A stretch of 20,463 bases of DNA, from positions 1 through 20,463 of the IMG/VR virus record IMGVR_UViG_3300035670_001465, one strand, 5' to 3'. Both the position numbers and the translations under genes were made by a program. Shown one piece after another: positions 5,533 to 15,381 of this stretch (positions within the stretch are counted from its first letter, which is position 1; every line of letters begins with the position of its first letter). The DNA is from a virus. The notes under the pieces are model-generated. The model worked only from the letters and a program-made list of their open reading frames with translations. It had not been told where the DNA came from and made no database searches.

Positions 5533-6225
5533 TTAACGTACTACAAAGCCATTGTCGTTATGCTTAGCCTTGCCCTTAGCCTTTAAGCCTACGATAACAC
5601 CCTGTGACTCAAGGAAGCGGGCATCTTGGGCATCCCCATCGATAACCTTGCGCCCCATGAACGTCAAAGGAAACTCACCGGCAAATACCACTGCCATACG
5701 TGCCTCTGCCTTGAGTGCATGCTTGATCTGGTTTTTGTACGAAGGCTTGCCAGAGTATGAGAAAGTTAGATCGTAGGGCATGTCAGCTAGTCGATCTGCC
5801 CTTTTGGTGTAGTCGTAGAATTGGACCATGGGGAAAGCTTTCATAAGGTTTTCGTAAACAATGCCATCAACGGTTACAGGTATCGTTTCCCATGCCACAT
5901 CCGACAGCACGTTCATACGGCAGGCAAGGGTAACCTTACGCTTTGCTGCCCTACGTACATAAGCTTGCATTTCCTTGACTACTTGGGCCATGAAAGCATC
6001 AGGGTTAGACATGAAATAGTCGGTTTTGGCTTGCCTTGCCAGTGCCACAGATGTCATCTGCCCCCTACCTGCAGACTTCAGGCAATCGTCCATGCATCCT
6101 GCAGCCTTAGCCCCTGGGCATAGTGTGTAGTTGGGCATCATGGATAAGCCTATGAACATGTACTCGGTCTGTGCCTTGTTGGTCTTGGCAAGCTTGGCGT
6201 TGCTGTCATGGGTAAGTAGTTGCAT
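5533..6225 (-). CDS. Conserved phage protein with N-terminal Cys cluster, 230 aa (GP88/DUF7227-like)
   Basis: First gene of the leftward arm. The segment TLCPGAKAAGCMDDCLKSAG (residues 34-53) gives cysteines at 36, 44 and 48; a fourth, C102, sits in LACRMNVLSDVAWE. This pattern recalls a widespread phage family (mycobacteriophage gene-88-like, or DUF7227 in recent databases), from memory and not checked. The cysteines could hold zinc or an iron-sulfur cluster. The rest is alpha/beta, with FYDYTKRADRL near 136-146. GGAG sits seven bases upstream of ATG 6225. Its position directly after the control region suggests strong early expression. Role unknown. Confidence 0.75.
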   Translation of the reverse strand: MQLLTHDSNAKLAKTNKAQTEYMFIGLSMMPNYTLCPGAKAAGCMDDCLKSAGRGQMTSVALARQAKTDYFMSNPDAFMAQVVKEMQAYVRRAAKRKVTLACRMNVLSDVAWETIPVTVDGIVYENLMKAFPMVQFYDYTKRADRLADMPYDLTFSYSGKPSYKNQIKHALKAEARMAVVFAGEFPLTFMGRKVIDGDAQDARFLESQGVIVGLKAKGKAKHNDNGFVVR

Positions 6226-9648: not shown

Positions 9649-10047
9649 ATGGGGCGTACTAACGAAAAGCTTTGGAACTCCGTAGTCAAGCAAGTAAAAG
9701 CACAAAGTAAAGGTGGGGATCCTGGAGAATGGTCAGCTAGAAAAGCACAGTTAGCAGGTAAGATATATAAAGATAAAGGTGGTGGGTACACAGGCGAAAA
9801 GACTAAAGCCCAAAAGAGTTTAAGTAAGTGGACTAAAGAAGATTGGGGTACTAAGTCAGGTAAGCCCTCCACACAGGGACCAAAGGCTACAGGTGAAAGG
9901 TACTTACCCAAGAAGGCTAGAGAGGCACTATCACCCGCAGAATACGCAGCTACTACAAAAGCTAAACGAGAGGGTACAAAGCAAGGTAAGCAGTTTGTGA
10001 GCCAACCTAAAGCTATTGCAAAGAAGGTTCGACCTTACAGGGACTAA
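9649..10047 (+). CDS. DUF5872-like basic protein, 132 aa
   Basis: Residues 24-67 hold the DUF5872 pattern as I recall it: DPGEWSARKAQLAGKIYKDK, then GGGYTGEKTKAQKSL and SKWTKEDWGTK. A second common phage block follows, REALSPAEYAATTKAKREGT (91-110) and KQFVSQPKAIAKKVRPYRD. The protein is strongly basic. DUF5872 appears in phages and large eukaryotic DNA viruses; role unknown. It starts two bases after the preceding stop without a clear Shine-Dalgarno, so translation is probably coupled. Confidence 0.8.
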   Translation: MGRTNEKLWNSVVKQVKAQSKGGDPGEWSARKAQLAGKIYKDKGGGYTGEKTKAQKSLSKWTKEDWGTKSGKPSTQGPKATGERYLPKKAREALSPAEYAATTKAKREGTKQGKQFVSQPKAIAKKVRPYRD

Positions 10048-10051
10048 TGAC

Positions 10052-10429
10052 ATGGCAAGACAATTAACTGAACAACAGCAAAAGTTTCTTGATGTATTAT
10101 TCGATGAGGCAGGAGGGGACGTTAATCGTGCTAAAGTACTAGCAGGGTATTCACCTACCTACTATACCCGTGATATCATCAAGGGGCTTAAAGAAGAGAT
10201 CCTAGAAGCTACACAAATCTTTATGGCACGTAATGCTCCACGTGCAGCTATGTCCCTTGTAGATGGCATGGTAGATCCTACAGAGTTAGGCATCAGAGAT
10301 AAGCTTAATGCAGCTAAAGACTTATTGGATCGTGTAGGTTTAGCTAAGACAGAGAAGATGCAAATTGAAACAAATAATGGGTTAATGATTCTGCCACCCA
10401 AAGATAGTAATTCTCAAGATGATGAATAA
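10052..10429 (+). CDS. terS: Small terminase subunit (probable), 125 aa
   Basis: The N-terminal half carries a helix-turn-helix of the small-terminase kind, QQKFLDVLFDEAGGDVNRAK then VLAGYSPTYYTRD (approximately residues 9-40), and the rest is helical, ending acidic (DSNSQDDE). In head modules this protein recognises the phage packaging site and loads the large subunit. ATG 10052 is preferred over an upstream in-frame ATG at 10016 because the latter overlaps the basic gene before it; AGGG lies nine bases upstream. Position two genes before terL fits. The assignment is from motif and context. Confidence 0.75.
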   Translation: MARQLTEQQQKFLDVLFDEAGGDVNRAKVLAGYSPTYYTRDIIKGLKEEILEATQIFMARNAPRAAMSLVDGMVDPTELGIRDKLNAAKDLLDRVGLAKTEKMQIETNNGLMILPPKDSNSQDDE

Positions 10430-10431
10430 TT

Positions 10432-10962
10432 ATGGCACACAGTGTATTGCCATTAAGAAAGGCTGCAGGTAAGTGGTTATTACCTCAACCTAAAGATGCA
10501 GCTGAAACAGGAGAGTATGTACCTATACCCATGACAGTAAAGCTTGTAAATCCACCGTTTGGATACAAGTTTTCTGAAGAGACTAAGATGCTCTTAATAC
10601 CCATACCCCATGAACTAGACGCATTAGAGAAGGCTAAGAAGTATTTAAAACAATATCCATCTCGTAATGTAGCTGCATGGCTAACTAAGGTTACAGGTAG
10701 ATATATAAGTCATGTAGGTCTACTACAACGTGTAAAGAATGAGCGACAAAGAAAAGCCAAAATTAGCTTACTTAGGTCATGGGCCAGAAGGTACAAAGAA
10801 GCCCTTGAGCTTGCGGAAAAATACGAAGACAAGAAAGGTACAAAAATCTACAACCAAGCCAAAAAGATCGTTGAAAGTGCCAGACATCTCGATCCAGAAT
10901 ACAAGTCAGGAGGAGATACAGAGACAAGAAGTACTCATACAGAAAGTACAGCAGGACAATAA
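10432..10962 (+). CDS. Hypothetical HTH-like protein between terminase genes, 176 aa
   Basis: Unrecognised protein, basic in its second half. The N-terminus has a short strand-rich part (YVPIPMTVKLVNPPFGYKF), and residues about 63-110 contain two or three helices, EKAKKYLKQYPSRNVAAWLT then KVTGRYISHVGLLQRVKNER, resembling a helix-turn-helix, followed by SWARRYKEALELAEKYE. It could assist DNA recognition by the terminase (inference from position only). Its last 224 nt overlap the large-terminase frame. The tail from about residue 158 (GGDTETRSTHTESTAGQ) looks low-complexity and may be dispensable. Confidence 0.65.
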   Translation: MAHSVLPLRKAAGKWLLPQPKDAAETGEYVPIPMTVKLVNPPFGYKFSEETKMLLIPIPHELDALEKAKKYLKQYPSRNVAAWLTKVTGRYISHVGLLQRVKNERQRKAKISLLRSWARRYKEALELAEKYEDKKGTKIYNQAKKIVESARHLDPEYKSGGDTETRSTHTESTAGQ

Positions 10963-13267
10963 TGTAGTATTTAAACCTAACCTAGGCCCTCAATCTTTCT
11001 TTTTAGCTGCAAGTGAACGTGAGGTACTGTATGGTGGGGCTGCAGGTGGGGGTAAAGCACAGCCCCTTTATGCAAAAGTAGCTACGCCTTTTGGGTGGAA
11101 ATGCATGGGCGATTTGTATGTCGGTGATTTTGTATGTACTCCAAATGGAAAAACTGCAAAAATTACGCATTTACACCCACAAGGCATACAAGACATATAC
11201 ACGGTAACATTTCAGGATGGGTCTAAAGTAGAGTGTACTGGAGATCATCTGTGGATGTCTAAACCAATACGAGATGGTGCAGTTAGATGGAAGCCAAGAA
11301 CTACTTTAGAAATATTAAAAAGTAAAAGAGCACATGTAATACCTTTGGGTGTTACAGAGCAACAAGAGCAAGATCTTCCTTTAGACCCTTACGTTTTAGG
11401 TTTTTTACTTGGTGATGGGTCTATAACAACACGCTCTATTAGTATTACAACTGCAGATATAGAGTCTGCTGCTGAGCTTGCTAAATATGTTAAAATTACT
11501 AAAAGAGCAAGTAAATACACATATGGCATACGAGGCGTAGCTAGTATACTTAGAAGTTTAAATTTGATAGGAACAAATTCGTATACTAAGTTCATACCCG
11601 ATATATATATGAAAGGAAGCATACAGCAACGGCTATCTTTGCTTCAAGGTTTACTAGACACAGATGGCTATGTTTCTGTAGATGGCAAAGTTAACTACAC
11701 TAGCATGTCCCCTTTTTTACTTTCTTCTGTTGCTGAGTTAATAAGAAGTGTCGGCGGTACAGCTAAAGTATTTAAAGGGCATACGTTATACATACGACAC
11801 CCAGATAGTAGTTCTTTATTTCGTTTAGCAAGAAAAAAACAAAGGTGCCATACTAAGACTATCAATAATAAAATACTTAGTATTGAAAAAACAGGCGAGT
11901 TTTATGCACAATGTATAACTATTGATTCAGAAGAACAGCTGTACATAACAGATAACTACGTAGTAACACACAACAGCTATGCAATGCTAGCGGATCCCAT
12001 GCGATATATGGGACATCCACAGTTTAGTGGCTTACTTTTACGACATACAACAGAAGAATTAAGGGAACTGATTTGGAAAAGTCAGGAGTTGTACCCAAGA
12101 ATCTATCCTGGGATCAAATGGTCCGAGAGAAAGATGCAGTGGCAGGCACCAAGTGGCGCAAGACTATGGTTTTCTTACTTGGATCGTGACGAGGACGTAC
12201 TAAGGTATCAGGGACTCTCATTCAGTTGGGTAGGTTTTGACGAATTGACGCAATGGTCAACTCCATTTGCATGGAATTATATGCGTTCTCGCTTGCGGAG
12301 TACCGCACCAGACCTACCTACCTACATGAGAGCTACTACAAACCCTGGGGGTCCGGGTCATACATGGGTTAAAAAGATGTTTATTGACCCAAGTCCTGCT
12401 GGTAGGGCATTCTGGGCTACCGACATAGAGACAGGTGACATGCTTTCGTACCCAAAAGGTCACAGTAAAGAGGGTCAACCCCTGTTTAAGCGTAGGTTTA
12501 TACCTGCCATGCTCTCAGATAACCCCTATCTTGCTGAAGGTGGTGACTATGAAACCATGCTTTTGTCACTTCCTGAACATCAACGTAAACAATTGCTTGA
12601 AGGTAACTGGGATGTAGCTGAAGGTGCTGCATTTCCAGAGTTTAACAGGCGTATTCATGTTATTAAGCACGAAAAAATACCCAGTAACTGGGCTAGATTC
12701 AGGGCATGTGACTATGGATACGGTTCTTACTCGGCAGTGCTATGGTTTGCAGTAGCCCCATCTGAACAACTTATCGTTTATAGGGAATTATACGTTAGTA
12801 AAATACTAGCTAAAGACCTTGCCAAGATGATATTGAATATTGAACAAGAAGATGGACAAATCCGTTATGGTGTTCTTGATTCTTCCTGTTGGCATCGTAG
12901 GGGTGATACTGGTCCTTCACTGGCTGAGCAGATGATAGCTGAGGGTTGTAGGTGGAGACCTGCAGATCGTAGTGCAGGATCACGTGTAGCAGGTAAAAAT
13001 GAGATACATAGACGGTTACAGCTGGATGATTTCACTGAAGAACCCAGATTAGTGATCATGGATAACTGTACGCATTTAATTTCTCAGTTACCTGTTATAC
13101 CTTTGGATAAGTCTAACCCTGAAGATATCAATACAAAGTCTGAAGATCACTTATATGATGCACTGCGATATGGTGTCATGAGCAGACCTAGAAGTAGTTT
13201 ATGGGACTATGATCCCGCACATCAGCGTAGCGGTATGAGTGTAGCTGACCGCACTTTTGGATACTAA
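10739..13267 (+). CDS. terL: Large terminase subunit, interrupted by an intein (842-aa precursor)
   Basis: ATPase and nuclease that pumps DNA into the prohead and cuts it. The Walker A P-loop GGAAGGGK (residues 99-106) is split from its Ser (S413) by the 306-residue intein at 107-412. After splicing the motor would be 536 residues. Downstream motifs: Walker B VGFDEL with D501/E502, TTNPGGPGHTW coupling segment, and the nuclease residues D658 (ACDYGYGS), D714 (VLDSS) and D807 (HLYDALRYG). The only ATG before the P-loop is 10739, which overlaps the previous gene by 224 nt and has a poor Shine-Dalgarno; TTG 10871 and GTG 10877 are alternatives, so the N-terminus is uncertain. Function is firm. 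Confidence 0.95.
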   Translation: MSDKEKPKLAYLGHGPEGTKKPLSLRKNTKTRKVQKSTTKPKRSLKVPDISIQNTSQEEIQRQEVLIQKVQQDNNVVFKPNLGPQSFFLAASEREVLYGGAAGGGKAQPLYAKVATPFGWKCMGDLYVGDFVCTPNGKTAKITHLHPQGIQDIYTVTFQDGSKVECTGDHLWMSKPIRDGAVRWKPRTTLEILKSKRAHVIPLGVTEQQEQDLPLDPYVLGFLLGDGSITTRSISITTADIESAAELAKYVKITKRASKYTYGIRGVASILRSLNLIGTNSYTKFIPDIYMKGSIQQRLSLLQGLLDTDGYVSVDGKVNYTSMSPFLLSSVAELIRSVGGTAKVFKGHTLYIRHPDSSSLFRLARKKQRCHTKTINNKILSIEKTGEFYAQCITIDSEEQLYITDNYVVTHNSYAMLADPMRYMGHPQFSGLLLRHTTEELRELIWKSQELYPRIYPGIKWSERKMQWQAPSGARLWFSYLDRDEDVLRYQGLSFSWVGFDELTQWSTPFAWNYMRSRLRSTAPDLPTYMRATTNPGGPGHTWVKKMFIDPSPAGRAFWATDIETGDMLSYPKGHSKEGQPLFKRRFIPAMLSDNPYLAEGGDYETMLLSLPEHQRKQLLEGNWDVAEGAAFPEFNRRIHVIKHEKIPSNWARFRACDYGYGSYSAVLWFAVAPSEQLIVYRELYVSKILAKDLAKMILNIEQEDGQIRYGVLDSSCWHRRGDTGPSLAEQMIAEGCRWRPADRSAGSRVAGKNEIHRRLQLDDFTEEPRLVIMDNCTHLISQLPVIPLDKSNPEDINTKSEDHLYDALRYGVMSRPRSSLWDYDPAHQRSGMSVADRTFGY
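11057..11974 (+). other. Class 3 intein with LAGLIDADG homing endonuclease (inside terL)
   Basis: 306 codons in frame within terL, beginning AQPLYAKV (Ala at position 1, not Cys or Ser) and ending VVTHN before Ser +1. The residues that define class 3 inteins are present: Trp in TGDHLW (intein residue 66, block B), Cys in AQCITID (residue 286, block F) and Thr in VVTHN (residue 304, block G). The endonuclease motifs are LGFLLGDGSI (about 114-123) and LLQGLLDTDGYV (about 195-206), with acidic residues at 120 and 201-203. All splicing and endonuclease motifs look intact. The insertion point is directly before the P-loop Ser, so splicing is needed for a working motor. Confidence 0.92.
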
Positions 13268-13269
13268 CT

Positions 13270-15381
13270 ATGGCCCAAGATAAAACGGATTATACAGAAG
13301 CTACAACGGTAAGCTTAGAAGATGCACCTTCATTTAATCGTGAGGATGAAGTTACTAAGCCAATTATTGAATTGGTTAAAGGTAAATTTAATCGTGCTAA
13401 AACTGCAAGAAGGTACGATGAAGAAAGATGGTTAAGAGCTTATCGTAACTATCGTGGTATCTATGGTCCAGATGTACAATTTAGGGAAGACGAGAAGAGT
13501 AGGGTATTTATTAAAGTTACTAAGACTAAAGTGCTAGCTGCATACGGAGCTATCACTGAGGTACTATTTTCTAACAATTCATTTCCTATATCCGTTGAGC
13601 CTACTGTATTGCCAGAGGGTGTAGCTGAAGATGTTCACTTTGATCCCGCTAAAGCCAATCAAGCTCCCGTTGCAGGTGAAGCTATCTATGGCTTTGCAGG
13701 AGATGGTAAAAAGCTACCCCCCGGCTCAACTGCCTACAGTTTAGATAGGCTCTTAGGACCTCTTAAATCAGCCCTAGGAGGCATTAAAAACTTAAAGCTA
13801 GGTGCAGGTACTACCCCAACTTCAGTTACGTTTAGCCCTGCTATGGTAGCTGCTAAGAAGATGGAAAAGAAGATCAAGGATCAACTGGATGAAAGCAAAG
13901 CAAGTAAGCAATTAAGATCTACTGCTTTTGAAATGTCTTTGTTTGGTACAGGGATTATGAAAGGTCCCTTTGCTGTTGATAAAGAGTACCCTAGTTGGGA
14001 AGAGTCAGGTGACTATAAGCCCACCATTAAAACGGTTCCTTCTACTTCTCATGTGAGTGTATGGAATTTCTATCCCGATCCAGATGCAGCTAATATGGAA
14101 GAGGCTAGTTATGTCATTGAAAGGCATAAACTTAGCAGATCACAGTTACGTGCATTAAAGAAACGTCCCTACTTCCGTAAGCAAGTCATCGATGACGTAA
14201 TTGCCGAAGGTGAATCATATACTAAAGAGTATTGGGAAGATGATCTCAATGATTACCAAACAGATCATGGTGTCAACCGATTTGAAGTACTAGAGTTCTG
14301 GGGCACTGTTGATAGTGACATGCTTAAAGACAACGGTGTTAAGATACCGGCAGAACTAAACGGTGTTGATGAGCTACAGGCTAATGTGTGGTTGTGTAAT
14401 AACCGTATCATTCGCATGGTACTTAACCCATTTAAACCTGCACGTATTCCGTACTATGCAGTGCCTTACGAATTAAATCCATACTCATTCTTTGGTATTG
14501 GTATCGGTGAAAATATGGACGATACGCAAACACTGATGAATGGTTTTATGAGATTGGCAGTAGATAATGCTGTATTATCGGGTAATCTTGTATTTGAAGT
14601 TGATGAGACTAACCTCGTACCTGGGCAGGATCTACAAATATATCCCGGTAAAGTGTTTCGTAGACAGGGTGGTGCACCTGGGCAAGCTATCTTTGGTACT
14701 AAGTTTCCCAATGTTTCTAATGAGAATCTACAGTTATTTGATAAGGCTCGTGTACTTGCAGATGAATCCACGGGTTTTCCTTCATTTGCACATGGTCAAA
14801 CTGGCGTAGCAGGTGTAGGTAGAACGGCTAGTGGCATCAGCATGTTAATGAATGCTGCAACGGGATCTATTAAGACTGTCATTAAGAATGTCGATGATTA
14901 TTTGTTACGCCCCATGGGTGAGGCATTCTTTAGCTTTAACATGCAATTTGACTTTGATCCAGAAGCACGTGGAGACTTAGAAGTTAAAGCACGTGGTACT
15001 GAAAGCCTTATGGCAAATGAAGTACGTAGCCAACGCTTGATGCAATTCTTACAGATTGCAAGTTCACCTGCACTAATGCCTTTTGCTAAGTTCCCTTACA
15101 TCATCCGTGAAATTGCTAAGTCCATGGATCTTGATCCAGATAAGGTAACTAACAGTTTAGAAGAGGCTGCAAGACAAGCAGCTATGGTACAGCCACAACA
15201 ACCTGCTGCACAACCTGCTGCACAACCTGCTGCACCCGGAGCACCTGCAGTACCCGGAGTAGCAGATACAGCAGGTACAGGGGGTGGCAATATAGGGATA
15301 GGACAAGCACCTGTCCCAGGCGAACAAGGATTTACGGGTAATGTCCAATCAATTAGACCAGCAGCACCTCAACAGGCTTAA
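13270..15381 (+). CDS. Portal protein, 703 aa
   Basis: The dodecameric portal sits at the head vertex and is the channel for DNA packaging and ejection. Evidence is position directly after terL, length, and typical blocks: an early ERWLRAYRNYRGIYG and FIKVTKTKVLAAYGAITEVL (ring-forming helical region), KPARIPYYAVPYELNPYSFFGIGIGENM with DDTQTLMNGFMRLAVDN, and DDYLLRPMGEAFFSFNMQFD near the C-terminal part. A Pro/Ala/Gln-rich low-complexity tail near residues 640-660 has three tandem copies of a 12-nt unit (CAACCTGCTGCA, 15200-15235). The start is 2 nt after the terL stop with a weak Shine-Dalgarno, so coupled translation is likely. Confidence 0.85.
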   Translation: MAQDKTDYTEATTVSLEDAPSFNREDEVTKPIIELVKGKFNRAKTARRYDEERWLRAYRNYRGIYGPDVQFREDEKSRVFIKVTKTKVLAAYGAITEVLFSNNSFPISVEPTVLPEGVAEDVHFDPAKANQAPVAGEAIYGFAGDGKKLPPGSTAYSLDRLLGPLKSALGGIKNLKLGAGTTPTSVTFSPAMVAAKKMEKKIKDQLDESKASKQLRSTAFEMSLFGTGIMKGPFAVDKEYPSWEESGDYKPTIKTVPSTSHVSVWNFYPDPDAANMEEASYVIERHKLSRSQLRALKKRPYFRKQVIDDVIAEGESYTKEYWEDDLNDYQTDHGVNRFEVLEFWGTVDSDMLKDNGVKIPAELNGVDELQANVWLCNNRIIRMVLNPFKPARIPYYAVPYELNPYSFFGIGIGENMDDTQTLMNGFMRLAVDNAVLSGNLVFEVDETNLVPGQDLQIYPGKVFRRQGGAPGQAIFGTKFPNVSNENLQLFDKARVLADESTGFPSFAHGQTGVAGVGRTASGISMLMNAATGSIKTVIKNVDDYLLRPMGEAFFSFNMQFDFDPEARGDLEVKARGTESLMANEVRSQRLMQFLQIASSPALMPFAKFPYIIREIAKSMDLDPDKVTNSLEEAARQAAMVQPQQPAAQPAAQPAAPGAPAVPGVADTAGTGGGNIGIGQAPVPGEQGFTGNVQSIRPAAPQQA

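Follow-up and report, generated by a model that had tools for sequence, protein, structure and literature searches.

Does the in-frame insert that splits the Walker A motif of this terminase large subunit (TerL) gene constitute a class 3 intein, and does that intein splice and move? The gene lies in the window, the whole 20,463-base fragment analysed here, which was taken from an IMG/VR record of an uncultured bacterial virus, probably a marine one; by sequence, its phage is HMO-2011-like. The evidence presented here makes it very probable that a full-size class 3 intein interrupts the TerL of this HMO-2011-like phage at Walker A, and that it splices and homes as proposed below.

The features of the packaging region and of the intein are listed in Table 1. 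Both exteins are homologous to the TerL of HMO-2011-like phages. In particular, the nearest TerL matches are those of Roseobacter phage CRP-1 and Puniceispirillum phage HMO-2011, and the alignments jump over the insert; the C-extein also matches Pfam Terminase_6N/Terminase_3 slightly under the cut-off. A 176-aa frame without a PHROG match (10432-10962, + strand) extends over the initial 224 bases of terL, out of frame with it. Elsewhere in the window, the minus strand carries a ThyX fragment (Thy1) cut by the window edge (2-481), a GlcNAc-type glycosyltransferase (408-1394) and a Gp88-family protein (5533-6225).

Table 1. Packaging genes, TerL exteins and intein features, with positions in the window.
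Feature	Position	Strand	Basis
Terminase small subunit (TerS)	10016..10429	+	PHROG 2538
TerL, intein included	10739-13267	+	Reading frame
TerL N-extein, 106 aa, ending in Walker A GGAAGGGK	10739..11056	+	Homologous to TerL of CRP-1 and HMO-2011
Class 3 intein with LAGLIDADG homing endonuclease, 306 aa	11057..11974	+	Sequence, alignments, tree, model
Block B H64-L65-W66, with the catalytic His and the Trp of class 3	11246..11254	+	Aligned with 6bs8; W in 90/91 sequences
Homing endonuclease domain, approx. residues 96-262	11342..11842	+	Pfam LAGLIDADG_3; PI-SceI match; dN/dS 0.061
First LAGLIDADG motif VLGFLLGDG, D120 (PI-SceI D218)	11393..11419	+	Alignment
Block D Lys K178 (PI-SceI K301)	11588..11590	+	Alignment
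Second LAGLIDADG motif LLQGLLDTDG, D203 (PI-SceI D326)	11639..11668	+	Alignment
Block F Cys C286, presumed to attack first	11912..11914	+	Aligned with 6bs8; 91/91 W-C-T sequences; Gly in 8/8 class 1 inteins
Block G T304-H305-N306	11966..11974	+	Aligned with 6bs8
Ser+1, second nucleophile; Walker A Ser once TerL is spliced	11975..11977	+	Codon AGC
TerL C-extein, 430 aa, beginning SYAMLADP	11975..13267	+	PHROG 979 terminase large subunit, E 9.6e-54
Portal / head-tail connector protein	13270..15381	+	PHROG 332 and 1216

The insert is 918 nt long, in frame and free of stop codons. The preliminary description had placed it at 11057-11974, between the Lys and Ser of Walker A (GGAAGGGK/S, the slash marking the insertion point), and these limits are exact to the base: GGAAGGGK directly precedes it, SYAMLADP directly follows it, the reading frame bears out the split, and Walker A is intact in the alleles without the intein. 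The Ala1 and the block B Trp, block F Cys and block G Thr that it had named were likewise found; residue 1 is a non-nucleophilic Ala in place of Ser, Thr or Cys, and W66, C286 and T304 occupy the class 3 positions B:12, F:4 and G:5. A block alignment could have put the Cys and Trp elsewhere; instead, both of them, together with T304, H64, H305 and N306, align with their counterparts in the solved class 3 intein of M. smegmatis DnaB (6bs8).

Across 91 distinct W-C-T sequences from annotated phages and viral contigs, which were chosen by similarity and are no unbiased census, 90 have the block B Trp, and all have the block F Cys and block G Thr. In contrast, the small comparison set of eight phage inteins of class 1 (Cys1), several of them at Walker A, has Leu at the Trp position and Gly at the Cys position; seven of the eight keep the THN ending, so that T304 by itself is not diagnostic of class 3. 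Further, in a tree of the splicing blocks (146 columns, with columns 1, 66 and 286 removed), a branch with a support of 100 separates every W-C-T intein, the window's included, from the eight class 1 rows; the rows include no biochemically proven class 3 intein. The position of the window's intein within the W-C-T group is poorly resolved, and its companions there are other phage W-C-T inteins.

Several relatives show variations on the signature. Two inteins inside the W-C-T group of the tree have a nucleophilic residue 1: one carries Cys1 (L120:308-1420; SAGK/CQPLYAKV) and may have regained a residue-1 nucleophile, and the other carries Ser1 (L141:2501-3544; GTGK/SQPLSEPV). In a third intein, Phe replaces the block B Trp (L144:428-1441; EHLFEC), with Ala1, the block F Cys and THN retained. 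More broadly, among the viral contig loci L105-L184, whose host proteins were identified for some only, W-C-T inteins stand directly after the Walker A Lys in many phage P-loop proteins and often start with AQPL. In genome contigs, a search with one related intein gave no confirmed relative from bacteria.

A structure model, calculated with AlphaFold2 on a sequence alignment (pLDDT 95.7, pTM 0.91), agrees with this placement. Among mini-inteins and splicing domains, the top solved match of the splicing domain is 6bs8 (Z 20.6, 1.6 A over 123 residues), followed by the class 3 DnaB inteins 6riy (Z 19.8) and 6rix (Z 19.7); the class 1 intein gp41-1 is nearly equal in this comparison (Z 19.2). Pfam Intein_splicing was matched weakly (E 0.014; 6e-4 in a second search). 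Overall, the W-C-T set with a non-nucleophilic residue 1, the tree and the structural match of the splicing domain support the assignment of the window's intein to class 3.

The endonuclease part matches Pfam PF14528 above the cut-off, and the best structural match over the whole length is PI-SceI (Z 25.3), whose catalytic residues are D218, K301 and D326. These align with D120, K178 and D203 of the window's intein. The two LAGLIDADG helices thus keep their catalytic acidic residues within the expected fold, in agreement with the preliminary description, which had considered both motifs intact.

A further line of evidence comes from populations of related phages. Using the TerL C-extein as query, 80 loci of the same phage group were retrieved, 79 of which have an exactly empty site, with a 0-nt gap at the insertion point. 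Besides the window, three viral contigs from different metagenomes have the 918-nt intein at this site (L001, L002 and L003; L001 and L011 are one contig). Because the same intein recurs at the same site in three other contigs, alongside 79 exact empty sites, the insert is neither a chance feature nor an assembly artefact. The intein is rare in the wider phage group. Between the window and L001-L003, it is 97% identical in amino acids and 94.7% in nucleotides, as compared to only 67% amino acid identity in the N-extein stretch. The loci closest to the window in their N-extein and upstream DNA (L008-L010; 94-96% identity over 300 nt) are without the intein. Moreover, the intein-bearing L001 and the intein-less L013 have flanking DNA with 99-100% identity across most of the kilobase on each side; in particular, identity is 99-100% in each 100 nt of the upstream kilobase, and downstream it is 96-100% over the kilobase and 97.2% over 4.3 kb. 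This population evidence for mobility is the new part of the analysis, and the polymorphism between near-identical phages is its most useful element.

The intein is also under purifying selection. For the window and L001 pair, dN/dS is 0.049 over the intein, 0.061 in its endonuclease part and 0.034-0.043 in its splicing part, while dS is 0.23 in the intein versus 0.47 in the C-extein. The Ser codon at +1 is AGC in the window, and TCG in its nearest kin L008-L010; the L001/L013 lineage, L012 included, has either AGC or AGT. A switch between the two Ser codon families takes at least two substitutions, which makes co-conversion with the intein the simplest reading of AGC; the codon suggests such an event, on the strength of a few nucleotides in a recombining gene. 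The proposal of active homing is strengthened by the presence/absence polymorphism, by purifying selection on the endonuclease and by this putative trace of co-conversion, and the population data are consistent with cutting of the empty allele.

From these residues, we infer the following course of events, whose chemical steps (C286 attack, transfer to Ser+1, Asn306 cyclisation and ligation) are those expected of class 3 inteins (PMC7664689, PMC5222942, PMC3196547). Once the precursor is translated, C286, sharing an active site with H64, W66 and T304, would attack the Lys106-Ala1 bond to form the block F branched thioester; the N-extein would then pass to Ser+1, N306 would cyclise with the aid of H305, and ligation of the exteins would restore GGAAGGGKS. 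The unspliced precursor is predicted to be unable to hydrolyse ATP, because Lys106 and Ser+1 both belong to Walker A; with the P-loop broken until splicing, packaging should therefore need splicing, which we regard as a sound inference. The LAGLIDADG domain would cut an intein-less terL at the insertion site, and repair from a co-infecting, intein-bearing phage would copy the intein. A more elaborate reading is improbable: that the class 3 TerL intein is now spreading through populations of otherwise nearly identical phages, and that packaging is timed by slow or redox-sensitive splicing, so that the intein would be retained for a regulatory role besides being a parasite.

Other explanations account for parts of these observations. 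The intein could be class 3 by sequence and fold with an endonuclease that is now inactive, in which case the occupied and empty alleles would reflect an old polymorphism and ordinary recombination without current homing. The mosaic identity in the terL flanks and the rarity of the intein in the wider group agree with such a history, and homing cleavage is itself a prediction from sequence; however, the catalytic residues are intact, the endonuclease and splicing parts are constrained to a similar degree, and, as the dS values indicate, the lineages differ less in the intein than in the exteins. An endonuclease that has lost its activity is considered unlikely.

The mechanism could instead be that of class 1 or class 2, with residue 1 or Ser+1 attacking first and C286 being incidental. 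Ala1 with Ser+1 fits class 2 (KlbA-type) chemistry, and class 1 inteins ending in THN occur at Walker A sites; against this, C286 and W66 are found in nearly all relatives and are absent from the class 1 set, and the tree places the window's intein among W-C-T inteins. Class 1 was rejected because Ala1 cannot be a nucleophile. Class 2 combines a non-nucleophilic residue 1 with the lack of a block F Cys and W-C-T set, and was rejected in view of C286 and W66; either mechanism is very improbable. It is hardly credible that a dead intein or a mis-assembly inactivates TerL. The contig is indeed a metagenomic fragment, but the same intein recurs in three contigs from other metagenomes, and an open frame, strong purifying selection and intact TerL exteins argue against decay; a pseudogene was rejected on a dN/dS of 0.05, and an assembly artefact on the four contigs. 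The preferred reading remains a class 3 TerL intein that splices and homes.

The window's intein is not novel in kind, as full-size class 3 TerL inteins have been known in phages since 2016 (PMC5050341). Kelley et al. described seven terminase insertion sites in mycobacteriophages, with TerL1-a inserted between the P-loop Lys and Thr, and counted TerL1-c, -d and -e as class 3; splicing was demonstrated for five mycobacteriophage terminase inteins and cutting for TerL1-b and TerL1-c, where TerL1-c (Bethlehem) both spliced and cut an intein-less terL (PMC5050341). The preliminary description had related this locus to the idea that class 3 inteins originated in phages. A full-size phage TerL member it is; its weight as evidence is weak, because such inteins are already described (PMC5050341) and many exist, and by itself the window's intein does not decide that origin. 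Among the open-licence papers searched, none mentions both HMO-2011 and intein. With this locus, the range of class 3 TerL P-loop inteins comes to include HMO-2011-like phages, and the near-isogenic L001 and L013 alleles offer a ready substrate for class 3 homing tests outside mycobacteriophages.

Like the window's intein, mycobacteriophage TerL1-a to -e are full-size and lie in the TerL ATPase domain (PMC5050341), although they belong to another terminase lineage and host group (actinobacteriophages). Six viral TerLs have a W-C-T intein at the same position, namely those of FireRed, TaPaz, MetMV, Aphanizomenon phage CL131, Pseudoalteromonas phage HM1 and Thiohalocapsa phage MD04. The FireRed intein, which we take to be TerL1-a on the basis of cluster and site, lies at Lys/Thr, combines Ala1 with W-C-T and is about 29% identical to the window's. 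The other five share with it the Walker A Lys and Ser/Thr site, W-C-T, THN and LAGLIDADG, and several start with AQP, as the window's does; they differ in sequence (roughly 26-38% identity) and in length (350-407 versus 306 aa). Mycobacterial DnaB class 3 inteins (6bs8, 6rix/6riy) have the H-W-C-T arrangement in common with it, but are helicase mini-inteins without an endonuclease. PI-SceI, the yeast VMA intein, resembles it in whole-length fold and endonuclease residues, and differs in being class 1 (Cys1), longer and inserted in a vacuolar ATPase.
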